A DNA stretch of 64,000 nt from Tindallia sp. MSAO_Bac2 (GTDB taxonomy: Bacteria; Bacillota; Clostridia; Peptostreptococcales; Tindalliaceae). Position numbers and translations under genes: made by a program. Of the stretch, positions 10,392 through 25,740 are shown one piece after another. The notes beneath the pieces were generated by a model that worked only from the letters and a program-made list of their open reading frames with translations, did no database searches and had not been told where the DNA came from. Position 1 is the stretch's first letter; each line of letters starts with the position of its first letter. The stretch is taken from assembly GCA_003838145.1 (NCBI GenBank), contig QYZZ01000047.1, positions 1 through 64,000 of the forward strand, given 5' to 3'.

Positions 10392-11552
10392 ATGTTGAAG
10401 AAGTATGGAATTTTGTTATTAATGGTTTTGCTTATTCTGTCACTGGCTGTGACCGGTTGCGGTGGCCCTGATGAGCCTGCTGAACCGACAGACGCAGAAG
10501 AACCGGCAGATACTGGTGAAGAAGTAGACCCAAGCGATGATCAACTGGATATTGTTCTATTGATCAATGGTACTTTGGGAGACAGATCTTTCTTTGACTC
10601 TGCCCACAATGGAATGCAACTAATAGAGCAGGAATTGGGTGCTAATGTTAGAACTATCGAAATGTCTTATGATCAGACTAGCTGGGAACCTACGCTATGG
10701 GACGTTTCTGAGCAGGACTGGGACATTATCGTGCTGGGTACTTGGCAGATGCAGGAGTATCTTGAAGAGATTGCTCCCGAATTCCCGGATAATCGCTACA
10801 TCATTTTTGATACTTCTGTAGACTACAGCCTTGGCGGATTGGACAATGTTTATTCCATTCAGTACAAACAAAACGAAGGTGCATTCTTAGCTGGCGTATT
10901 AGCAGCCCATGTGACTAACTCTGATATGGAATTTGCAGATGACAGTCAAAGCCTGATTGGGTTCCTTGGAGGCATGGACATACCTGTCATTAATGACTTC
11001 CTGGTTGGCTATATTGAAGGTGCCCTTTATGTCGACGAAGATGTTAAAGTTTATGTTTCTTATATTGGCGACTTTTCTGATTCCCCTCGAGGAAAAGAAA
11101 TGGCGCTGGCCCAGTACAATGATGGAGTGGACATTGGCTTTAACGTAGCAGGCCAAGCCGGACTGGGACAAATTGATGCAGCAGAAGAAGTACAAAGATA
11201 TGCCATTGGTGTTGACTCTGACCAGGCTTTGGTATTCGCTGAGACAGATCCGGAAAAAGCAGAATTTGTGTTGACTTCCATGCTGAAGCGAGTGGATAAT
11301 TCTATCCTACGTGCAGTTGAGATGCATATAGAAGGAACCTTGCCATACGGAGAAGCAGAAGCTCTTGGTATTCAGGAGGAAGCTGTCGGATTAGCAAACA
11401 ACGAATTCTATCAGGAAAACGTTGATCAGGAATTAAGAGATTATATCAAGGAAATTGAAGAAATGATTGATGCTGGCGAAATAACTGTAAGATCAGCGTT
11501 GGGAATGTCGACAGAAGAGTTGGATGAACTCAGAGATTCTGTCAGTCCTTAA
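10392..11552 (+). CDS. BMP-family nucleoside-binding lipoprotein
   Basis: Extracellular substrate-binding lipoprotein of a BmpA/YufN-type nucleoside ABC importer. Lys-rich N-terminus, hydrophobic core and lipobox LAVTGC (Cys near residue 23) are followed by a low-complexity acidic Pro/Glu linker (about 26-50). The mature domain has family features NEGAFLAGVLAA, IGFLGGMDIPVINDF and AIGVDSDQA near residue 275. Mature sequence is strongly acidic. ATG follows an AGGGGG site. It heads an operon with its ATPase, two permeases and nucleoside-degrading enzymes, which supports nucleosides as the substrate (inference from family and context). Confidence 0.9.
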   Translation: MLKKYGILLLMVLLILSLAVTGCGGPDEPAEPTDAEEPADTGEEVDPSDDQLDIVLLINGTLGDRSFFDSAHNGMQLIEQELGANVRTIEMSYDQTSWEPTLWDVSEQDWDIIVLGTWQMQEYLEEIAPEFPDNRYIIFDTSVDYSLGGLDNVYSIQYKQNEGAFLAGVLAAHVTNSDMEFADDSQSLIGFLGGMDIPVINDFLVGYIEGALYVDEDVKVYVSYIGDFSDSPRGKEMALAQYNDGVDIGFNVAGQAGLGQIDAAEEVQRYAIGVDSDQALVFAETDPEKAEFVLTSMLKRVDNSILRAVEMHIEGTLPYGEAEALGIQEEAVGLANNEFYQENVDQELRDYIKEIEEMIDAGEITVRSALGMSTEELDELRDSVSP

Positions 11553-11621: not shown

Positions 11622-11644
11622 TCAATTTTACATAATATTAAATG

Positions 11645-11674
11645 AAACTCCCGCCAAATTTGACGGGAGTTTTA
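11645..11674 (+). terminator. Possible attenuator before the ATPase gene
   Basis: Nine-base stem AAACTCCCG/CGGGAGTTT enclosing a further short CAA/TTG pairing, then TTTT. It is the second hairpin between the binding-protein gene and the transporter ATPase and could lower downstream expression. Confidence 0.55.
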
Positions 11675-11698
11675 GAGATGGAGGTGTCACTGGAAATT

Positions 11699-13252
11699 AT
11701 GGAAGAAATACTAAGTATGAAAGGAATTACCAAGGTATATCCAAATGGTGTTATGGCTAATAAAAACGTGGATTTTTCTGTCCGTAAAGGTGAAATTCAT
11801 GCCATTATGGGTGAAAATGGTGCCGGAAAATCAACCTTGATGAAAATTTTGTTCGGTATGGAGCAGCCGGAAGAAGGCGAAATCATTTTCAAAGGAGAAA
11901 AAATCAATATATCATCTCCCAGTGCGGCCATTAATTATGGCATCGGAATGGTGCATCAACATTTTATGCTGGTGCCAAGCCTTACAGTTGCAGAAAATCT
12001 GGTAATAGGAATTGAGCCTAAAAAGAATAATGTTTTTTTTGACTATGATCAGGCGATCAAGATGACAGAAGAAGTTTCCAAGAAATACAATCTGTCAATC
12101 AATCCCAAAGCTGTGGTGGATACACTGGCTGTTGGAAAGAAGCAAAAAATTGAGATATTGAAGGCCCTGGTCCGGGGTGCGGAAATTCTGATCCTGGATG
12201 AACCTACTGCCGTTTTAACGCCACAGGAAACAAAGGAATTATTTGAAGAACTGATAAACCTTAAAAACCAGGGTTTTACCATCATTTTTATATCCCACAA
12301 ACTAAAAGAAGTAAAACAAATAACAGATCGCCTCACGATTCTTCGAAACGGAAGAAGTATGGGTGTTCATGAAACCAAAGATACTAGTGAACAGGAGATA
12401 TCAAATCTAATGGTTGGCCGGGATGTTTTGCTAAAGGTAGATAAAGGTGAAGCAAAGGTTGGAAAACCGGTCCTCAAAACGGAAAAACTTACTTACTACA
12501 GTGATGAAGACAAGCCGGTTGTCAATAAGGTTGATTTAGAGATAAAAAAAGGCCAGATATTGGGGATTGCCGGAGTTGAAGGTAATGGCCAGGGCGAACT
12601 GGTGGATTTGTTAACAGGTATGAAAACACCCTATTCCGGAAGTATCTGGATTAATGAAAAAGATACCACGAACCATTCTGTCAAAGCAGTAAGAAATTTA
12701 AAGGTATCTCATATTCCAGAAGACCGTATGATTTATGGGGTTTCCGGTGATGGAAGCATAGAAGAAAATATTATTTCAGATCGTTTCGACAAGAAAAAAT
12801 ACAACACAGGTGTTCTGATGAATGTAAAGAAACTAACTGAATTAGCCAAGAGTTTAATTGAAGATTATAATATCAGATGCGCTTCGGAAAAACAGCAGGT
12901 GAGAATGCTGTCCGGCGGAAACATACAGAAAGTGGTAGTTGCCCGGGAGTTTTCATCCGAGCCGGAGTTAATCATTGCTAACCAGCCAACAAGAGGCGTT
13001 GATGTTGGGTCCACAGAATTTATACGAAAACAATTAGTTAAATTGAGAGATGAAGGAACAGCGGTTCTTCTTGTTTCTGCGGACCTGAATGAAGTTATGG
13101 AGCTGAGCGACAGCCTGATGGTTATGTATGAAGGTGAAATAGTGGCTTACTTTGAAGATGCCACAGAAGTGACGGAAATGGAGCTGGGCATGTACATGCT
13201 TGGGCTAAAAAGAATGTCTGTTGAGGAACTGGGAGGTGTGATGAGTGGGTAG
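11699..13252 (+). CDS. Nucleoside ABC transporter ATP-binding protein (YufO type)
   Basis: Cytoplasmic ATPase with two fused ABC domains, as in the sugar/nucleoside CUT2-like class. The first half has Walker A GENGAGKSTL, an atypical signature LAVGKKQKIEILKAL and Walker B ILILDEPTAVLTP; the second half has a degenerate Walker A (GVEGNGQGEL), the signature MLSGGNIQKVVVARE and NQPTRGVD. The ATG at 11699 follows GGAGGTG by 12 bases and gives 517 residues; earlier in-frame codons overlap the hairpin. It overlaps the next permease gene by eight bases. Confidence 0.93.
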   Translation: MEEILSMKGITKVYPNGVMANKNVDFSVRKGEIHAIMGENGAGKSTLMKILFGMEQPEEGEIIFKGEKINISSPSAAINYGIGMVHQHFMLVPSLTVAENLVIGIEPKKNNVFFDYDQAIKMTEEVSKKYNLSINPKAVVDTLAVGKKQKIEILKALVRGAEILILDEPTAVLTPQETKELFEELINLKNQGFTIIFISHKLKEVKQITDRLTILRNGRSMGVHETKDTSEQEISNLMVGRDVLLKVDKGEAKVGKPVLKTEKLTYYSDEDKPVVNKVDLEIKKGQILGIAGVEGNGQGELVDLLTGMKTPYSGSIWINEKDTTNHSVKAVRNLKVSHIPEDRMIYGVSGDGSIEENIISDRFDKKKYNTGVLMNVKKLTELAKSLIEDYNIRCASEKQQVRMLSGGNIQKVVVAREFSSEPELIIANQPTRGVDVGSTEFIRKQLVKLRDEGTAVLLVSADLNEVMELSDSLMVMYEGEIVAYFEDATEVTEMELGMYMLGLKRMSVEELGGVMSG

Positions 13253-14324
13253 AAGAGTCTTTTTTGAGGCAGCAAGAACTTTAGTTGCTATAGGTGCTGC
13301 GTTTGTTTTGGCCTTAATCATCATATACTCGGTTAGTGATGATCCTGGATTTGCATTGTATCACTTTGTTGTTGCTCCCTTAAGAACAACGCGTTATATA
13401 GGAAATATTTTAGAAATGGCTATTCCTCTCATTTTTACCGGATTGGCAATGTCTATGATGTTTACGGCCAAACAGTTTAACCTGGGAGCCGAAGGAGGCT
13501 TTTTCATCGGTGCCGTAGCGGCTACTGCAGTTGCCATTTCTTTCGATATGCCGCCTGTCGTCCTTCCTTTTTTTGCCATACTAGCCGGCGGATTGGCCGG
13601 AGGCCTTGGAAGTACAGTGCCGGCCGTATTGAAAGCAAAGCTTAACGCCAGTGAGTTGGTTTCCTCCTTGATGCTTAATTTCATTTTATTCTGGTTTGGA
13701 ATATTCCTTATTAATAATTATTTTCGTGATGAAATGGCTGGAGCCATGGCATCCCACCGTCTTAACCCGGACGCCCGACTCATTAGAATTTTGCCGGGAA
13801 CAAGGCTTCATTTTGGAATCATTATTGCCATCCTGTTCGTTGTTCTTGTTTACTTGTTCCTGTTTCGAACACGTTGGGGATATGCCCTTAGAATGACAGG
13901 ACAGAATATTAAATTTGCCGAATACTCAGGAATAAATACCACAGCCGTCATTATTTATTCACAAATCATTGGTGGATTTCTGGCAGGAATAGGCGGAGCC
14001 GTTGAGCTGCTAGGCATGTACAGTCGTTTTACCTGGTTTCAGTCTCCGGGATATGGATGGGATGGAGTTATCGTTGCCATTATGGCCAGGAACAATCCCC
14101 TCTTAATCCCGGTATTTGCTGTTTTTCTTGGCTATCTGAGAATAGGGGCAGATGTAATGGCAAGATTTTCCGATGTTCCCAGTGAAGTAGTGGCAATTAT
14201 CCAGGGAATTATGATTATGCTGGTAACAGCTGAAAGACTGCTTTCCGGATGGCGGCACCGGGTGGTAGTGAAAGAACAAATGAAGCTGGAACAGCTAAAG
14301 AATGGAGGGGTAAACCATGGGTAG
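13245..14324 (+). CDS. Nucleoside ABC transporter permease (YufP type)
   Basis: Membrane subunit of the BMP-type importer, 359 residues with about nine hydrophobic helices. Family features include GLAMSMMFTAKQFNLGAEGGF near residue 65, KLNASELVSSLMLNFI and GFLAGIGGAVELLGM near 250. The GTG at 13245 is inside the end of the ATPase gene and follows GGGAGGTG. It overlaps the second permease by eight bases, which points to tight translational coupling. Confidence 0.92.
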   Translation: MGRRVFFEAARTLVAIGAAFVLALIIIYSVSDDPGFALYHFVVAPLRTTRYIGNILEMAIPLIFTGLAMSMMFTAKQFNLGAEGGFFIGAVAATAVAISFDMPPVVLPFFAILAGGLAGGLGSTVPAVLKAKLNASELVSSLMLNFILFWFGIFLINNYFRDEMAGAMASHRLNPDARLIRILPGTRLHFGIIIAILFVVLVYLFLFRTRWGYALRMTGQNIKFAEYSGINTTAVIIYSQIIGGFLAGIGGAVELLGMYSRFTWFQSPGYGWDGVIVAIMARNNPLLIPVFAVFLGYLRIGADVMARFSDVPSEVVAIIQGIMIMLVTAERLLSGWRHRVVVKEQMKLEQLKNGGVNHG

Positions 14325-15252
14325 TCTATTTAATCTGATTTTTTCAACAACCTTTGGTTATTCAGTATTAAGAGTAACCACGCCCATTCTTTTTGCTACC
14401 ATTGGTGCCATGATTTCTATCAAGGCAGGCGTTGTTAATATCAGTATGGAAGGTACCATGCTGACAGCTGCCTTAACCGCTGTCGTGATAAGTGGATATA
14501 CCGGCAGCGCATTGGCGGGGCTGATAGGAGCTATACTAATTGGAATGCTGTTGGGGCTAATGCTGGCTTACTTTGCCCTGAATCTGAAAACCAATATTAT
14601 TTTGGCTGCCATCGCTATTAACCTAATGGCATCAGGCGGAACCATCTTCGCCTTATTCGTTATATCCGGTGACAGAGGAATCTCTTCATCTATCAACAGC
14701 CAGATGCTTCCCAGGATTATCATACCTGTATTGGACAGTATTCCTGTATTGGGTGGCATTTTTTCCAATCATAATATATTAACCTATGTTTCTTTAATAT
14801 CCGTGTTTTTTGTTTATGTGTTGCTGTATAAAACTCCATTGGGTTTGAGGATTAGGGCTGTTGGGGAGAATCCAAACGCTGCAGAATCTGTTGGTATAAA
14901 CGTGCGAAAAGTACAGTACATTGCCCTCATTATGAGCGGGGCTTTTGCCGGTTTTGGTGGTGCCTATATGTCCATGGGATATGTTTCCAGGTTTTCGACG
15001 GATATGACCGCTGGCCGTGGATTTATCGCATTGGCAGCTGAAGCTCTGGGTATGGGACGGCCCCTGGGAATTCTGCTGGCTTCCCTACTTTTTGGAGCTG
15101 CCGACGCCCTTTCAAACTCTTTGCAGCGTTTCCGAATTCCATCAGAGTTTGTTCAAATGCTGCCATATATTGTGACTATCCTGGGCTTGATTATTTACGC
15201 TGTTAGACAAACCAACGCATCAAAAAGACATAAAGCGGAGGATCGAGTATGA
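14317..15252 (+). CDS. Nucleoside ABC transporter permease (YufQ type)
   Basis: Second membrane subunit of the importer, 311 residues with eight to nine helices. IKAGVVNISMEGTML near residue 32 and RAVGENPNAAESVGINV near 190 are typical of this permease family; GRGFIALAAEALGMGRP is the conserved cytoplasmic coupling region. ATG follows GGAGGGG. Its stop overlaps the next start as ATGA. Confidence 0.92.
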   Translation: MGSLFNLIFSTTFGYSVLRVTTPILFATIGAMISIKAGVVNISMEGTMLTAALTAVVISGYTGSALAGLIGAILIGMLLGLMLAYFALNLKTNIILAAIAINLMASGGTIFALFVISGDRGISSSINSQMLPRIIIPVLDSIPVLGGIFSNHNILTYVSLISVFFVYVLLYKTPLGLRIRAVGENPNAAESVGINVRKVQYIALIMSGAFAGFGGAYMSMGYVSRFSTDMTAGRGFIALAAEALGMGRPLGILLASLLFGAADALSNSLQRFRIPSEFVQMLPYIVTILGLIIYAVRQTNASKRHKAEDRV

Positions 15253-16178
15253 AAAAACCAATTATTATGGACTGCGATCCGGGGCATGATGATGCCCTGG
15301 CCCTTTTACTGGCCTTTGCCAGTGATGAACTAGACGTTAAGGCTGTAACAACCGTAGGTGGTAACCAAACCAGTGAAAAAACCTTAAATAATGCCATGCG
15401 GGTGCTTAGTTACGCCGGTATTACAGATGTTCCGGTAGCACCGGGTGCCAGCCAACCGCTAATAAGAGAGCTTCAAATTGCTCCCGAGGTTCATGGCGAA
15501 AGCGGTCTGGAAGGCCCGGAGCTGCCGGAGCCGACCTTCGAAGCTTATGATAAAAGTGCCATTGAATTAATGGAAGAAGTGATTATGGCCAGTGAAGAAA
15601 AAATAACGCTGGTTCCCACCGGACCCTTAACAAACATTGCCACACTGCTGTTGACGGTTCCGGAAGCGAAAGACCGAATTGAACGAATATCCCTGATGGG
15701 AGGATCCGCCGTAGGTGGCAACTGGACGCCGGCTGCTGAATTTAATATTCTGGTGGATCCGGAAGCGGCAGATGTGGTTTTTCAAAGTGGTATTCCTATT
15801 ACCATGTGTGGACTGGATGTAACGCATCAGGCTCAGATCTACGACGATGAAATTGAATCCATTCGATCCCAGGGTGGTAAAGTGTCCGTGATGGTGGCCG
15901 AACTGCTGGACTTTTTTGCGAAGTTCCACAAGCAATTGGGCTTTGAAGGCAGCCCTCTTCATGACCCCTGCGCCGTGGCCTGGCTCATTAAACCGGAGCT
16001 TTTCACCTCCAGGCACTTGCACGTGGATATCGAAACCAGGGGAGAATTTACCAGCGGTGCCACGGTGGTGGACTATCGGGGCGTTACCGGCAAACATCCC
16101 AACACAGATGTGGTATATGATGTGGATCGGAAAGCCTTTATTCAATTGCTGATGGATAGCTTTAAAAAATATGATTAA
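15249..16178 (+). CDS. Inosine-uridine-type nucleoside hydrolase 1
   Basis: Hydrolyses the N-glycosidic bond of ribonucleosides to free base and ribose. The N-terminal Ca2+-binding motif DCDPGHDDA (about 8-16), GPLTNIA near 126, MGGSAVGGNW, the AEFNILVDPEAA ribose-binding segment near 165 and the HDPCAVAW motif near 240 are all present. 309 residues, normal length. The ATG overlaps the stop of the permease gene. A second divergent copy follows, so the pair probably divides substrates (for example purine versus pyrimidine); I cannot assign which. Confidence 0.92.
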   Translation: MKKPIIMDCDPGHDDALALLLAFASDELDVKAVTTVGGNQTSEKTLNNAMRVLSYAGITDVPVAPGASQPLIRELQIAPEVHGESGLEGPELPEPTFEAYDKSAIELMEEVIMASEEKITLVPTGPLTNIATLLLTVPEAKDRIERISLMGGSAVGGNWTPAAEFNILVDPEAADVVFQSGIPITMCGLDVTHQAQIYDDEIESIRSQGGKVSVMVAELLDFFAKFHKQLGFEGSPLHDPCAVAWLIKPELFTSRHLHVDIETRGEFTSGATVVDYRGVTGKHPNTDVVYDVDRKAFIQLLMDSFKKYD

Positions 16179-16215: not shown

Positions 16216-17148
16216 ATGAAAATACCCGTTATAATAGACTGTGATCCAGGCACGGATGATACCATTGCACTGATTATGGCGTTAGCTTCAGAAGCATTGG
16301 ACGTAAAGGCAATTACTACTGTAGCCGGTAATCAAACAGCTGAGAAAACCGCCGTGAACGGACTGAAAATAGTTTCTTTCCTGGATAAGCAGTTACCTGT
16401 TGCCAGAGGTGCCGAAAAACCTATCATGAGACCTTTGGTAACGGCTGGTCACGTTCATGGTGAAACCGGCATGGCCCATGTGGTATTGCCAGAGGCTAAA
16501 AATGATTATCTTGAAACCAAAGCCTGGGACTTGTTTTATAAAATGAGCGTGGAAAGTAACGAAAAAATTCATCTGATCACTTTGGGACCACTTAGCAATG
16601 TCGCCATTGCATTGATGAAATATCCACATCTGAAGGATGGCATTTCCCAAATTACCATGATGGGTGGAGCCGTTGGATATGGTAATGACACACAGGCAGC
16701 AGAATATAACATTTATGCTGACCCGGAGGCTGCCAAAATGGTATTTGAATCCGGCATTCCCATTACCATGGTAGGGCTTGACTGCACTCATCAGGCTTGG
16801 ATTACCCAGAATGAAATTGAAAGCATGGGGAAGCCTTCAAAAGAAAACGGTGTTTGGCTGGCTCAGGAATTGATGCGTCACATCCATGAATTTGCCTCCC
16901 GCTTCGGCTTTGAGGGAGCCATCATGCATGATCCTTCGGCAATTGCCGCTGTCATTGATCCCACACTAATTCAAACGGAAGATTATTTCGTAACCGTAGA
17001 AACGAAGGGAGAACACACTTTGGGCAAAACCGTGGTGGATACCCTGCGTGTTACCGGCCATGAACCGAATGCACAGGTGGCCCTGGACATGGATCGGGAA
17101 CGATTTGTGGAACTGGTGAAAGGATTGATTCAACAGTATGAAATATGA
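16216..17148 (+). CDS. Inosine-uridine-type nucleoside hydrolase 2
   Basis: Second nucleoside hydrolase, 310 residues. It has DCDPGTDDT (Thr in place of His compared with copy 1), GPLSNVA, MMGGAVGYGN, AEYNIYADPEAA and HDPSAIA. The active-site differences from copy 1 suggest a different specificity. The ATG follows GAGGAGG. Its last eleven bases overlap the next gene. Confidence 0.92.
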   Translation: MKIPVIIDCDPGTDDTIALIMALASEALDVKAITTVAGNQTAEKTAVNGLKIVSFLDKQLPVARGAEKPIMRPLVTAGHVHGETGMAHVVLPEAKNDYLETKAWDLFYKMSVESNEKIHLITLGPLSNVAIALMKYPHLKDGISQITMMGGAVGYGNDTQAAEYNIYADPEAAKMVFESGIPITMVGLDCTHQAWITQNEIESMGKPSKENGVWLAQELMRHIHEFASRFGFEGAIMHDPSAIAAVIDPTLIQTEDYFVTVETKGEHTLGKTVVDTLRVTGHEPNAQVALDMDRERFVELVKGLIQQYEI

Positions 17149-18436
17149 TGTTATTTTAAAAAATGCCGGTATTCTTGATGAAGCCGGCTTCTTTACACCT
17201 GAAAAGCATGTTTTGATATTTGCCGGAAAAATAATGGAAATAACGGACAAATGGGAGGAAGAATGGGAAGCTGTTGAAATAATTGATGCTTCTGACCTGG
17301 TTATAAGCCCGGGATTTGTCAACCTGCATACCCATTCTCCCATGAATCTTTTGAGAGGCCTGGCAGAAGACGTCAACATCGATGACTGGTTTAACAAAGA
17401 AATATGGCCTTACGAAAGTAAAATGAACGAAGAAAACGCTTATGCCGGCGCGCTGGCTGCTTGCTGTGAAATGCTTCATCATGGAGTGACTGCTTTTGCT
17501 GATCATTATATGTTTGGTGAACAGGTGATTAAAGCTGTTCAGGAGACGGGGATTCGTTGCGACTTTGCACCGACTGTTTTTGGTGTTTCGCCAAATTTTA
17601 ATAAGGATTTAGAATCGGCACTTCAGCTCATTGAAAAGCATCAGAGAACCAACCCTGCATTATCCTTCAGGCTGGGACCTCACGCGCCTTATACATGCCC
17701 ACCGGAAACCCTGAAAAAAATTGTAGATGAAGCTAAAGGACTTGAAGTCGGTCTGCATATACATTTATCAGAGACGGAGCAGCAGTTAAAGGAAAGTCTG
17801 AGTACCTATGGCAAAACACCTTTTCAAATGCTGTCCGAAGCCGGTGGTTTTGAGTTGCCGCTTATTATTGCCCATGGTCTCTGGATAACAGAAAAAGACC
17901 TTCATTTCCTGGAAGACCAAAGTTATATGGCAGTCAGTCCCAAAACCTACCTGAAATTAGCCATGGGCTCCGGGAAGTTATGGCAATACTGGGATCAGCT
18001 GCCCTTGACCTCCGGAACAGACGGAGCCGCCAGTTCCAATTCTCTGGACCCTCTTGAACAAGTCCGATACTTTGGACTAATGGGAAAGCATATTACAGGT
18101 AATGCAGAAAAATTCAACATGAAAAATCTCTGGAAAATCCTGATGCGGGGTCATTCAGCGCTGCCTTTTGAAAGTGGCAAAATGGGACCCGGATATGTAG
18201 CAGATTTAATCTGCTGGAATCTGAACAGTGTGATGGTATCACCTGTTTATGATCCACTGGCAACCATCCTTTATAGTGCAGATCATTCAAACATAGAACA
18301 TGTGATGGTTAACGGAAAGTGGATGAAACGTGATGGCTCTTTGACACTGGACGAAGGAATGGCACAATTGCTGCTTCGAAAAAACGTCAAGGACGTGATG
18401 GCTAAAGGGAAAGGAAAAGCACAACTGACTTTCTAG
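17138..18436 (+). CDS. Amidohydrolase, cytosine/adenosine deaminase-like (ATZ/TRZ family)
   Basis: Metal-dependent hydrolase likely to deaminate a nucleoside or base. Metal site HTHSP near residue 64, HLSETEQQ near 210, AHGLW near 245 and SGTDGAASSNS near 290 are the family's ligands and substrate loop. 432 residues, close to 5'-methylthioadenosine/S-adenosylhomocysteine deaminases, whose substrate range is wide. It has no strong ribosome site and overlaps the hydrolase by eleven bases, so it is probably translationally coupled. In this operon adenosine, a related nucleoside or its base is the natural guess. Confidence 0.85.
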   Translation: MKYDVILKNAGILDEAGFFTPEKHVLIFAGKIMEITDKWEEEWEAVEIIDASDLVISPGFVNLHTHSPMNLLRGLAEDVNIDDWFNKEIWPYESKMNEENAYAGALAACCEMLHHGVTAFADHYMFGEQVIKAVQETGIRCDFAPTVFGVSPNFNKDLESALQLIEKHQRTNPALSFRLGPHAPYTCPPETLKKIVDEAKGLEVGLHIHLSETEQQLKESLSTYGKTPFQMLSEAGGFELPLIIAHGLWITEKDLHFLEDQSYMAVSPKTYLKLAMGSGKLWQYWDQLPLTSGTDGAASSNSLDPLEQVRYFGLMGKHITGNAEKFNMKNLWKILMRGHSALPFESGKMGPGYVADLICWNLNSVMVSPVYDPLATILYSADHSNIEHVMVNGKWMKRDGSLTLDEGMAQLLLRKNVKDVMAKGKGKAQLTF

Positions 18437-18458
18437 TATCCGAAAGGAGGCAGTTTAA

Positions 18459-19859
18459 ATGAAGGCTCGCCAAATGGAAATGAACCTGATGAAAAATGCT
18501 GTTCCAAAGCTTCTGTCAGAGGAAGAACAGACCTGGGATGCCATTCAGCAGGTGGAAGCCATGGAAGACCAGCGTTTAAAAATGTGGTGGTACAGTGAAG
18601 TGCCCGGTTCCGGCGCACCGGAACGATTAATTATTGCAGCCATGCAGGATATGGAAAACCGGGGCCTGAATGTTACGGCAGCCGAAAATTTTATAGATGA
18701 AGGTTTAAAGGCCTGGGAAACGGGAGATATGGAATCCCTTCATCGAATCACCGCCAGGATTTTTCGTGAATTGTTTCAGGCTCCAAGGAATCATGACGAT
18801 CCCTACTGGCAATATGAAGAGTTCACAAGCTGGAAACAGTATGAAAATAGCGTAGAATTCCCGGCAGAAGAGGCAGTAAACGTTAATAAACAGGATTTCG
18901 TAGATAAAGTACACGCCGGCTGGCTGGCCCAAATCATTGCCGGTGCCATTGGAACTGCCATGGAAGGATATACCACGGATCAACTGCTAAAAGCCTTTGG
19001 CGAAGTAAAGAATTATTTGCGTCAACCCAACACCTTCAATGACGACATCACCTATGAGCTTGCATTTCTAAAAGCCTTCTCGGAAAAGGGTTATAAACTT
19101 ACGGCAGCAGACATAGCCGATGAATGGGTGGCTCTTATTCCCTTTGGATGGTCGGCGGAAGACATTGCTCTTCGAAACCTGAAACTGGGAGTTTATCCAC
19201 CGGAAAGCGGTATTCGCAGCAATCCTTTTTATGAATGGATCGGAGCACAGATGCGGGGCGCTATTTGTGGCATGGTAGCTCCTGGAAACCCACAACAAGC
19301 TGCCAGGCTGGCCTGGATGGATGGATCCATCTCGCATCATAATAATGGCATTATCGGGGAAGTATTCAATGCCATGATGGTATCCATGGCTTTTGTGGAG
19401 AAGGATGTACGGGAAATCCTCTTTCGAAGCATAGACCTGATTCCCAAAACCAGTGAATATTATCAGGTAGTAACATTTGCCCTGCAGCAATGTCAGCATC
19501 ATCATCAATGGCTGGAGGCATGGAGACCCTGTGAAGAAAAATATGCCCGATATAATTGGATTCATGCTTATCCCAACGCAGCGGCAGAAATTATTGCCTT
19601 ATGGTATGGGAATGGGAACTTTAATGAAACCATGGAAATTATTGCCCTGGCAGGTCAGGATGTCGATTGTAATGCGGCCCAGATTGCATCAGTGTTGGGA
19701 ATTATCAACGGTCTTGATGGAATTGACAGTAAGTGGAAGGATCCTATCGGAGATGACTTGGATACTTATGTCCGTGGCATGAAGAAAATGACCATTTCCG
19801 GTTTGGCGGAGTGGACGGTTCAGTCCATCCGGCGAGCAAAGGAGGAAAGTACTCAATGA
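18459..19859 (+). CDS. ADP-ribosylglycohydrolase-family protein with N-terminal extension
   Basis: 466-residue member of the ARH/DraG all-alpha, Mg2+-dependent fold. The catalytic part begins near residue 145 with HAGWLAQIIAGAIGTAMEG, has FNDDITYEL where ADP-ribosyl hydrolases have a D-D-T motif, and AGQDVDCNAAQIA as the second metal motif. The first 140 residues are rich in Trp, Glu and Met and I do not recognise them. Metal-binding acids are kept but neighbours differ from known ADP-ribosyl-protein hydrolases. Location between a deaminase and ribokinase suggests cleavage of a small ribosyl compound. ATG follows AAAGGAGG. Confidence 0.8.
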   Translation: MKARQMEMNLMKNAVPKLLSEEEQTWDAIQQVEAMEDQRLKMWWYSEVPGSGAPERLIIAAMQDMENRGLNVTAAENFIDEGLKAWETGDMESLHRITARIFRELFQAPRNHDDPYWQYEEFTSWKQYENSVEFPAEEAVNVNKQDFVDKVHAGWLAQIIAGAIGTAMEGYTTDQLLKAFGEVKNYLRQPNTFNDDITYELAFLKAFSEKGYKLTAADIADEWVALIPFGWSAEDIALRNLKLGVYPPESGIRSNPFYEWIGAQMRGAICGMVAPGNPQQAARLAWMDGSISHHNNGIIGEVFNAMMVSMAFVEKDVREILFRSIDLIPKTSEYYQVVTFALQQCQHHHQWLEAWRPCEEKYARYNWIHAYPNAAAEIIALWYGNGNFNETMEIIALAGQDVDCNAAQIASVLGIINGLDGIDSKWKDPIGDDLDTYVRGMKKMTISGLAEWTVQSIRRAKEESTQ

Positions 19860-20752
19860 AAATAGCGGTTATCGGCAGCATAAACATGGATTTGGTTTTA
19901 CAGGTACAGCGGTTGCCACAAAAAGGGGAAACCTTGCTGGCAGATCATTTTAAAAAGGTGCCAGGGGGTAAAGGGGCCAATCAGGCCGTTGCCGCCGCCA
20001 GACTGGGTGCAGATGTAACCATGCTGGGTGCCTTGGGTACGGATGGATTTGGAGACGAACTGCTGGAAGGTTTAAAAAAGGAAAGAATAAACACGGATGG
20101 AATCCTGCGGACGGAAACCCCCTCTGGAAATGCCGTTATTACCGTTGATGAACAGGGAAACAATACCATTGTCGTATTTTCCGGCGCAAATTTTGATGTA
20201 ACAGAAAGCTGGGTTTATGATAAACTGGAGTTGCTGCAGGAAGCAGAATGGATCATGTTTCAGCTGGAAACACCAATGGAAACCGTTGAGAAAAGCATTC
20301 AACGACTGAAATCCCAGGATAAAAAAATCCTGCTGAATCCTGCACCAGCCAAAGATCTAGCAGATACTCTTTATCCCATGATTGATATTATCACTCCTAA
20401 CGAAACAGAACTGGCTCTTCTTTCCGGGACAGAAGATATTGAAGCTGGCGCCCGGATTTTACTGAAAAAAGGGGTGCGACAGGTAGTGGTTACCTTGGGT
20501 GAAAAGGGTTCACTGGCGATCAATAAAGAACAAATTATTGAAGGAAAACCTTATCAGGTGAAAGCGGTTGATACCACAGCAGCCGGAGACACTTATAATG
20601 CAGCTCTTTTGATAGCACTAATGGAAGATAAAGGCATGAAGGAAAGCCTTGATTTTGCCAACGCGGCAGGAGCGCTGGCCACTACAAGAATCGGCGCTCA
20701 GAGTTCGTTACCCACCAGGAATGAAGTATTGGAACTGATAAAAAAGGACTGA
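19856..20752 (+). CDS. rbsK: Ribokinase
   Basis: PfkB-family kinase phosphorylating ribose to ribose 5-phosphate. Motifs: VIGSINMDLV at the start, GGKGANQAVAAARLG near residue 41, NPAPAKDL near 160 and the catalytic-base motif DTTAAGDTYNAAL near 240. 298 residues from the ATG at 19856, which overlaps the previous stop (ATGA) and follows AAGGAGG. It completes the operon's logic: ribose released by the hydrolases enters the pentose phosphate pathway. Confidence 0.93.
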   Translation: MKIAVIGSINMDLVLQVQRLPQKGETLLADHFKKVPGGKGANQAVAAARLGADVTMLGALGTDGFGDELLEGLKKERINTDGILRTETPSGNAVITVDEQGNNTIVVFSGANFDVTESWVYDKLELLQEAEWIMFQLETPMETVEKSIQRLKSQDKKILLNPAPAKDLADTLYPMIDIITPNETELALLSGTEDIEAGARILLKKGVRQVVVTLGEKGSLAINKEQIIEGKPYQVKAVDTTAAGDTYNAALLIALMEDKGMKESLDFANAAGALATTRIGAQSSLPTRNEVLELIKKD

Positions 20753-24280: not shown

Positions 24281-24381
24281 CTCTTATAAAGAGCGGCGGA
24301 GGGACTGGCCCGATGAAGCCCGGCAACCGGCAGATAATGCACGGTGCTAAATCCTGTAGGTGAATACCTAAGAGATGAGAG
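24281..24381 (+). promoter_or_regulatory. SAM-I (S-box) riboswitch
   Basis: P1 helix CTCTTAT/ATGAGAG, then the S-box core AGAGCGGCGGAGGGACTGGC, GATGAAGCCCGGCAACC and GGTGCTAAATCC. It senses S-adenosylmethionine. High SAM should stabilise P1 and allow the downstream terminator; low SAM lets the P1 3' strand pair into an antiterminator so that metY-metA is transcribed. Confidence 0.95.
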
Positions 24382-24459: not shown

Positions 24460-25740
24460 ATGACAAAAAGTGCAAGAAAATTTGACACATTACAAATTCA
24501 TGCAGGACAGGAACCAGACCCGTCAACAGGTTCCAGAGCAGTACCCATTTACCAGACGACATCTTATGTATTTGACAATGTGGATCATGCCGCAAAGCTG
24601 TTTTCACTGGAAGAGGCAGGCAATATATATACCCGCATCATGAACCCAACAACGGATGTTTTTGAAAAAAGAATGGCGGCTCTTGAAGGCGGTGTGGCCG
24701 CTCTGGCCGTTGCCTCGGGTTCTGCGGCGGTGACCTATGCCATTATGAATATTGCTGAAGCAGGGGACGAAATTGTGGCTTCGAATGCACTGTACGGAGG
24801 CACCTATACGCTGCTGGATGCACAGCTGCCAAAATATGGAATCAAAACCATTTTTGTTCAGGCTGATGATCCACAAAACTTTGAAAAAGCCATCAACAAA
24901 AAAACCAAAGCCGTTTATCTGGAAAGTATCGGTAATCCGAATATTAATTTGATTGACCTGGAAGCAGTAGCAGAAATTGCACATCGGCATGGAATACCTG
25001 TTATTATTGACAACACTTTTGCAACTCCCTATCTGTTTCAACCATTGAAGTATGGGGCAGATATTGTGGTTCATTCTGCTACAAAGTTTATCGGAGGGCA
25101 CGGAACCAGTATTGGTGGTGTTATTGTGGACGGAGGTACCTTCGACTGGGAAGAAAGCGGAAAATTTCCTGGGCTGACAGAACCGGATCCGACCTATCAT
25201 GGAATAAGATACACTGAGACCTTCGGACCAGCGGCATATATTGTCAAAACGAGAGTTCAGCTGCTTCGGGATACAGGAGCTGCTCTGAGCCCCTTTAATG
25301 CATTTATGTTCTTACAGGGCCTTGAGACGCTGTCTCTGCGGCTGGAGCGGCATGTGGAGAACACCAGAAAGATTATCTCTTTTCTTAAAAAACACCCGAA
25401 GGTATCATGGGTCAACTATCCGGAGCTGGATGACAGTTCTTATTATGGTCTTTGTCAAAAATATTTTCCAAAAGGCGTGGGATCCATTTTTACCTTTGGA
25501 ATTAAAGGCGGGTTGGAAGCGGGGAAAACATTTATTGATTCATTAGAGATTTTTTCTCTGTTGGCAAACGTTGCAGATGCAAAATCCCTTGTGATTCATC
25601 CTGCCAGCACCACACACGCTCAGTTGACAGAGGAGCAGCAACGAAGTTCCGGCATCAGCCCGGACATGGTTCGTGTTTCTGTTGGTCTGGAAGATGTAGA
25701 AGATCTGATCAATGACTTGGACCAGGCATTAAATAAATGA
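24460..25740 (+). CDS. metY: O-acetylhomoserine sulfhydrylase
   Basis: PLP enzyme making homocysteine from O-acetylhomoserine and sulfide. 426 residues; [11 protein letters not shown] near residue 64, SGSAAVTYA for phosphate binding, [12 protein letters not shown] and the PLP lysine in [12 protein letters not shown] near 210 are diagnostic. The long form with [15 protein letters not shown] near the C-terminus fits MetY rather than cystathionine gamma-synthase. ATG follows AAAGGAG. It is under SAM riboswitch control and coupled to metA. Confidence 0.95.

Follow-up and report, generated by a model that had tools for sequence, protein, structure and literature searches.

A 466-residue protein encoded in a contig of Tindallia sp. 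MSAO_Bac2 is most likely, judging from its operon context, a riboside hydrolase. We put at about 0.74 the probability that it is a binuclear-metal hydrolase of the ADP-ribosylglycohydrolase (ARH) fold that cuts an imported small riboside and delivers free ribose to a coupled ribokinase. The DNA analyzed, hereafter the window, is a stretch of 64,000 nucleotides (contig QYZZ01000047.1, positions 1 to 64,000, forward strand).

The open reading frame lies on the plus strand at 18459-19859, as the first-pass annotation of the window had described it, and is preceded by a good ribosome binding site, AAAGGAGG, at 18443-18450. It is separated by 22 bp from an upstream amidohydrolase gene, and its stop codon overlaps the start of the ribokinase gene in the sequence ATGA (19856-19859). 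The earlier placement of the gene in a nucleoside operon ahead of a ribokinase was borne out by its neighbors, which also include a Bmp-type transporter and two nucleoside hydrolases:

10392..11552, plus strand: Bmp/PnrA-type substrate-binding lipoprotein
11642..13252, plus strand: ABC transporter ATPase with two ABC domains (listed start; the true one is probably further downstream)
13245..14324, plus strand: ABC permease A (BPD_transp_2)
14317..15252, plus strand: ABC permease B (BPD_transp_2)
15249..16178, plus strand: IU-type nucleoside hydrolase 1 (463 bits, exceeding the NCBIfam RihA cut-off)
16216..17148, plus strand: IU-type nucleoside hydrolase 2
17138..18436, plus strand: amidohydrolase of the nucleoside/TRZ-ATZ deaminase type
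18459..19859, plus strand: the 466-aa protein of this study, an N-terminal helical module followed by an ARH-fold domain
19856..20752, plus strand: ribokinase (TIGR02152, 339.7 bits, cut-off 299.65)

The listed ribokinase reading frame starts at 19811, and it is the ATG at 19856 that overlaps the ARH stop codon; SmpB and tmRNA follow downstream. The nearest solved relative of the binding lipoprotein is T. pallidum TmpC (2fqw, E 4.9e-33), and we take the ligands of PnrA/TmpC to be purine nucleosides. A terminator-like hairpin of 12 pairs is found between the binding-protein and ATPase genes (11645-11672), where it perhaps limits read-through and so favors overproduction of the binding protein. 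An ordinary SAM riboswitch (24281-24381, 85.2 bits) lies upstream of the gene at 24460-25740.

The only Pfam-A family in the protein is PF03747 (residues 154-423, 155.1 bits, E 4.1e-45; curated cut-off 26.2 bits). An AlphaFold2 model of the whole protein, built from 21 aligned sequences, had a pLDDT of 93.3 and a pTM of 0.92, and its residues 139-464 superposed on ARH3 with a Z of 30.2 (rmsd 2.7, 296 aligned, 16% identity); the model likewise matched MJ1187 (1t5j; Z 29.6, rmsd 2.7, 286 aligned, 20% identity) and DraG (Z 27.8, rmsd 3.0, 280 aligned). The first-pass annotation had called the protein an ARH-family enzyme and had proposed a structure comparison to ARH1, ARH3, and DraG, which returned the ARH fold with Z values of 26-30. 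Residues 140-461 can be assigned with confidence to an ARH domain, and the protein belongs to the ADP_ribosyl_GH / ARH fold superfamily. Alignment by sequence to characterized ARHs was marginal (E 0.1-0.2). In NCBIfam there was a sub-threshold match alone, to the Tri1 ADP-ribosylarginine hydrolase family NF041672, and with 15.6 bits against a curated cut-off of 490 the protein falls outside that family; the IU-type nucleoside hydrolase family PF01156 gave no match to it at E up to 1. The features discussed below are as follows:

18459..18878, plus strand: conserved helical N-terminal module, residues 1-140, of no known family
18588..18623, plus strand: clade-specific motif W.S.VPGS.AP[ED], residues 44-55 (WYSEVPGSGAPE)
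18876..19841, plus strand: ARH fold domain (PF03747), residues 140-461
18963..18965, plus strand: Glu169, candidate equivalent of the ARH3 Glu-flap residue Glu41 by its position before the DD motif
19038..19052, plus strand: NDDIT, residues 194-198, counterpart of the ARH [S/T]DDT metal motif
19659..19670, plus strand: DVDC, residues 401-404, counterpart of the ARH D.D[S/T] metal motif

The metal motif of ARH1 reads E...SDDT...DSDS and that of ARH3 E...[T/S]DDT...DTDT (PMC6309922). One Mg of ARH3 is held by Thr76, Asp77, Asp78, and Asp316 and the other by Asp314, Asp316, and Thr317 (PMC8141533), with Glu41 as the Glu-flap residue (PMC7050489). In place of the ARH1/ARH3 subclass motif E...[S/T]DDT...D.D[S/T], the window's protein reads E169...NDDI...DVDC: the Glu and aspartates are kept, Asn and Cys take the place of the Ser/Thr ligands, and Ile that of the Thr following the DD pair, with C404 aligned to Thr317 of ARH3. 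NDD (194-196) and QDVDCNAA (400-407), the aspartates of which had been noted early on, are retained across most of the clade; N194, D195, D196, D401, D403, and C404 are each found in 30 or 31 of 31 rows, locus L122 being the exception, and E169 is replaced by Ala in all three rows of the neighboring hut group in which the position is visible. The first-pass annotation had also stressed the altered D-D-T context, which is indeed changed (NDDI, DVDC) but is not peculiar to this protein. Altered contexts are common to other ARH branches (DDDTNY...DTDCN and PNDDLD...DTDCT), and the change is therefore no argument for a new substrate. In ARH1, Gly130 and His163 hold the ADP-ribose pyrophosphate (PMC6309922); the residues aligned with them, G262 and H293, are kept in 31 and 30, respectively, of the 31 rows of the family alignment. 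The sequence is therefore compatible with an ADP-ribosyl substrate, and the retention of the two residues could point to a substrate that bears phosphate.

The boundary between module and ARH domain falls at about residue 140, with the ARH fold aligning from residue 139-144, and the N-terminal part is as unrecognized as was first thought: no Pfam or NCBIfam model matches its approximately 140 residues, and a profile search against PDB sequences gave a best E of only 0.12. Modeled alone, the module reached a pLDDT of 87 and a pTM of 0.64, and this model found no significant structural match in Foldseek (best E 1.6) and a best VIA Z of 6.2, which is under the meaningful level for a helical bundle. 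A known fold was rejected on these grounds, weak VIA matches (Z up to 6.2) being typical of helical bundles; the VIA list from the whole model hardly probes the N-terminal part. The module is nonetheless a real protein segment and is conserved among relatives, with 15 invariant columns among 17 sequences (e.g., W44, S46, V48, P49, G50, and S51). Profile-profile comparison detected it (residues about 42-135) in two neighboring sister groups of ARHs, the hut and gly groups (probability 98.0 and 97.0), with which W44, G69, L94, and A108 are shared while most of the remaining motif differs there; in six other ARH groups the same comparison gave no confident match (best E 0.012). Of 398 genomes sampled from the phylum, 15, counting the window's own, were matched by a profile of the N-terminal part: nine matches were strong (E 1e-30 or better), five were weak and correspond to the hut and gly groups, and one further match (E 4e-4) may be due to chance.

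A scan of GTDB contigs returned 20 relatives that are 40-85% identical to the protein, 18 of which match from residue 1 or 2, with the remaining two (L046 and L049), which lie against a contig edge, matching from residue 122. Among 291 genomes sampled from the window's class, 67 gave some match, yet the match begins at residue 1 or 2 in just five places; nearly all others begin past residue 120 and represent other ARHs. The window's genome holds one copy of the family; a second ARH of 259 aa in this genome (L201:6417-7196, G000:C6) has the canonical FTDDSV...GGDSDT. In a tree of 81 rows that was built by a quick method and without bootstrap, the 35 family rows form one clade (SH-aLRT 100), the first branches of which are L073 and L075, and the early branches L050, L070, L071, L073, and L075 combine transporter and enzyme without a nucleoside hydrolase. 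One family copy in a transporter operon (L122:227-1660) lacks the VPGS motif and some of its metal ligands (D195N, D401E), and its genome carries a second, intact copy (L033), located after another amidohydrolase. The family member at L037 comes from Caldanaerobacter subterraneus, which can be cultured.

Gene neighborhoods were compared between 35 family loci (the window, L031-L051, L068-L075, L083-L085, L122, and L127) and 36 loci that encode other ARHs, picked in rank order from the class-wide matches, with flanks as far as the contigs reach in both sets; the family loci are not independent, as L041-L044 nearly duplicate one another and a single genome contributed both L033 and L122. Within 9 kb on the same strand, 26 of the 35 family loci encode a Bmp-type transporter versus 0 of the 36 others, and a ribokinase is encoded in 18 of 35 versus 3 of 36, although the ribokinase of L070 may belong to an adjoining sugar operon. 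Five of the nine family loci lacking the transporter end within 1.8 kb upstream (L040, L046, L049, L072, and L127), while L033, L035, L038, and L039 are truly without it; the ribokinase is absent from 17 of the 35, some of them cut by contig ends, and neither partner adjoins the ARH gene in four loci. No nucleoside hydrolase was seen in half of the transporter loci (13 of 26) within the available flanks, some of which are short. The order transporter-ARH-RbsK without a nucleoside hydrolase occurs in L041, L042, and L045, and a minimal operon, LacI-SBP-ABC-Perm-Perm-ARH-RbsK, with a ribokinase above cut-off (325.6 bits), was found later in L198, which is outside the 35-locus count. A Rhizobium plasmid carries SBP-ABC-Perm-Perm-ARH, in which the ARH is annotated as 'hypothetical protein' and no ribokinase lies alongside. 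Upstream of the transporter-ARH-ribokinase operon, L045 also encodes a CehA/McbA-type metallohydrolase (over cut-off) with a signal-like N-terminus, a homologue of which is present in L042, and a small DUF4430 protein; an AraC regulator is encoded on the opposite strand near this operon in L042 and L045.

In loci where transporter, enzyme, and ribokinase occur together without a nucleoside hydrolase, the ARH enzyme is the sole visible candidate for the release of ribose. In the route that we propose, a riboside would be imported by the binding protein, ATPase, and permeases, as their homology to PnrA/TmpC suggests, and its ribose 2'- and 3'-hydroxyls would be placed at two metals held by N194, D195, D196, D401, D403, and C404, with E169 as a putative gate or acid, roles predicted from the aligned ARH residues. 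Judging from context, the aglycone and ribose would then be released, and the ribokinase, going by its family, would convert ribose to ribose 5-phosphate. Given that the N-terminal module is conserved and clade-specific, its role is probably to shape the pocket on the aglycone or 5' side.

Characterized ARHs are alpha-selective (PMC7050489), and ARH3 has a small-molecule substrate, alpha-NAD+, in which it cleaves the N-glycosidic bond (PMC8319183). By analogy, our preferred sub-hypothesis, to which we give roughly even chances should the main reading hold, is that the enzyme handles alpha-ribosides. We prefer it because known ARHs cut alpha-linkages and the IU-type nucleoside hydrolases, metal-dependent enzymes that convert ribosides to ribose and base, prefer beta-nucleosides; alpha-selectivity would explain the presence of a third hydrolase beside two of the beta type. 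Alternatively, the substrate may be a beta-riboside that both nucleoside hydrolases refuse, such as nicotinamide riboside. A lead toward that compound comes from L038 and L039, the only two lineages in which an isochorismatase-family protein is encoded 15-16 bp upstream of the ARH gene; the L038 protein scores 72.9 bits with PF00857 and just 32.9 of 174 bits with the nicotinamidase model. Other clues to the substrate were pursued and set aside. Rfam searches at gathering scores found one tmRNA, three T-boxes, and one TPP element in 24 loci, none of them linked to the ARH gene, and in the window gave the tmRNA and SAM element only, neither of which hints at a substrate. In L072 (5782-8750), the ARH gene is followed on the same strand by DUF3842 and an ECF transporter S component; alpha-ribazole as the substrate stays speculative, as a search for this order in 38 genomes led to other family members (in G557, G369, and G1088) that adjoin a Bmp transporter instead.

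The first-pass annotation had suggested that an O- or N-ribosyl small molecule, rather than ADP-ribosyl proteins, is the substrate. The small ribosyl substrate fits the transporter and ribokinase counts and the minimal operons without a nucleoside hydrolase, whereas the dismissal of ADP-ribosyl substrates is weakened by the retained pyrophosphate-site residues. A genuine (ADP-ribosyl)hydrolase that regulates its operon and has ADP-ribosylated proteins or adducts of ADP-ribose as its substrates would account for the ARH fold, the kept metal aspartates, and the match of G262 and H293 to the pyrophosphate-binding residues of ARH1, but we consider it unlikely given the linkage to a transporter and a ribokinase, the marginal alignment to characterized ARHs, and the canonical second ARH elsewhere in the genome. 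The residues aligned with the pyrophosphate ligands would equally suit intracellular cleavage of a phosphorylated riboside (a nucleotide or ribose-5-phosphate glycoside) that yields ribose 5-phosphate directly. This is quite improbable: the coupled ribokinase requires free ribose, PnrA/TmpC, the nearest solved relative of the binding protein, presumably binds nucleosides, and the CehA/McbA-type metallohydrolase before the transporter in L045 and its homologue in L042 would fit dephosphorylation outside the cell. Replacement of two metal ligands by Asn and Cys and the further degradation of the L122 copy would be expected of a catalytically inactive sensor or scaffold of the pathway, to which we assign very little weight since D195, D196, D401, and D403 hardly vary across deep branches.

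Should the clade indeed consist of riboside hydrolases, its 'ADP-ribosylglycohydrolase' and 'hypothetical' labels would be misleading, ARH proteins being usually annotated as protein de-ADP-ribosylases, and an import-hydrolyze-phosphorylate route for ribosides would become testable. In the open-licence literature searched, we found few or no papers that join ADP-ribosylglycohydrolase with ribokinase, an operon or transporter, nucleoside hydrolase, or the BMP family; among them, PMC10819704 deals with yegTUV and PMC10434189 proved unrelated.

Related ARHs were found in other catabolic settings. In L077 (8052-12610) and L079 (2924-12811), a sister-group ARH is directly followed by HutH (TIGR01225, 706-709 bits) and HutU (TIGR01228, 955-967 bits), and the same order is seen in L078 (4320-9046), judged by eye from N-termini; L079 adds LacI and a ribokinase (by similarity), an SBP_bac_1 binding protein, and a sugar-type transporter. 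Linkage to these enzymes (histidine ammonia-lyase and urocanate hydratase) makes a ribosyl-histidine pathway a candidate; the fourth hut-group member, L121, has no Hut gene alongside within 3.7 kb. L080 and L081 adjoin an apparent sugar-type transporter (by eye). Among four annotated plasmid regions, that of Mycolicibacterium has a more distant ARH in the order LacI-ARH-ABC-ribokinase (annotated ribokinase, sugar-type ABC transporter) and that of Deinococcus has ARH-ribokinase-ARH with a sugar ABC transporter; those of Enterobacter and Agrobacterium have ARH and transporter genes and no annotated ribokinase. Four consecutive ARH-like genes occur in L196 (3375-17893, G557:C9) and L197 (2265-16874, G1097:C1) in runs that include LacI, ribokinase, sugar-type ABC transporter, and citrate lyase genes (L197 by eye); in L196, CitC, CitD, CitF, CitX, and CitG score above NCBIfam cut-offs and CitE below. 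Such runs suggest either that the substrate is citrate-like and ribosylated or that the ARHs act on the prosthetic group of citrate lyase. In the actinomycete loci L125 (7514-15345) and L126 (8232-14284), ARH paralogues stand in a row with a ribokinase-like gene, and L125 also has a CaiB-type CoA-transferase and a CitE/RipC-like lyase, both under curated cut-offs. A broader and more doubtful reading is that the ARH branch including this clade comprises small-molecule riboside hydrolases, probably alpha-selective, that are partnered by importers and ribokinases and tuned to their aglycones, which might be bases or nicotinamide-like rings here, histidine or imidazole with HutH and HutU, and citrate-like acids with citrate lyase. 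If true, this would imply that N- and O-ribosides exist in nature as pools on which bacteria feed.

Compared with ARH3, ARH1, and DraG, the protein shares the fold, the metal aspartates, the Glu before the DD motif, and the pyrophosphate-site Gly and His, but it has NDDI and DVDC for [S/T]DDT and D.D[S/T], about 13-16% identity, an additional 140-residue N-terminal module, and an operon for riboside import and ribokinase. The nearest solved sequence is that of MJ1187 (1t5j; profile E 2.8e-7), an uncharacterized archaeal ARH-like protein that is shorter (313 aa), aligns to residues 144-459 only, and reads TDDT and DTDS. The IU-type nucleoside hydrolases (RihA/RihC), two of which are encoded in the window's operon, presumably catalyze the same type of reaction, yet they belong to the unrelated family PF01156 and are beta-selective. 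E. coli yegTUV, the genes of which are stated to be of unknown function in PMC10819704, resembles the window's operon in combining a transporter, an ARH (YegU), and a PfkB-type sugar kinase, whereas YegU has 334 aa and a very long branch in the tree and the transporter is of the MFS type; the reading proposed here, if true, would provide a concrete hypothesis for this system.
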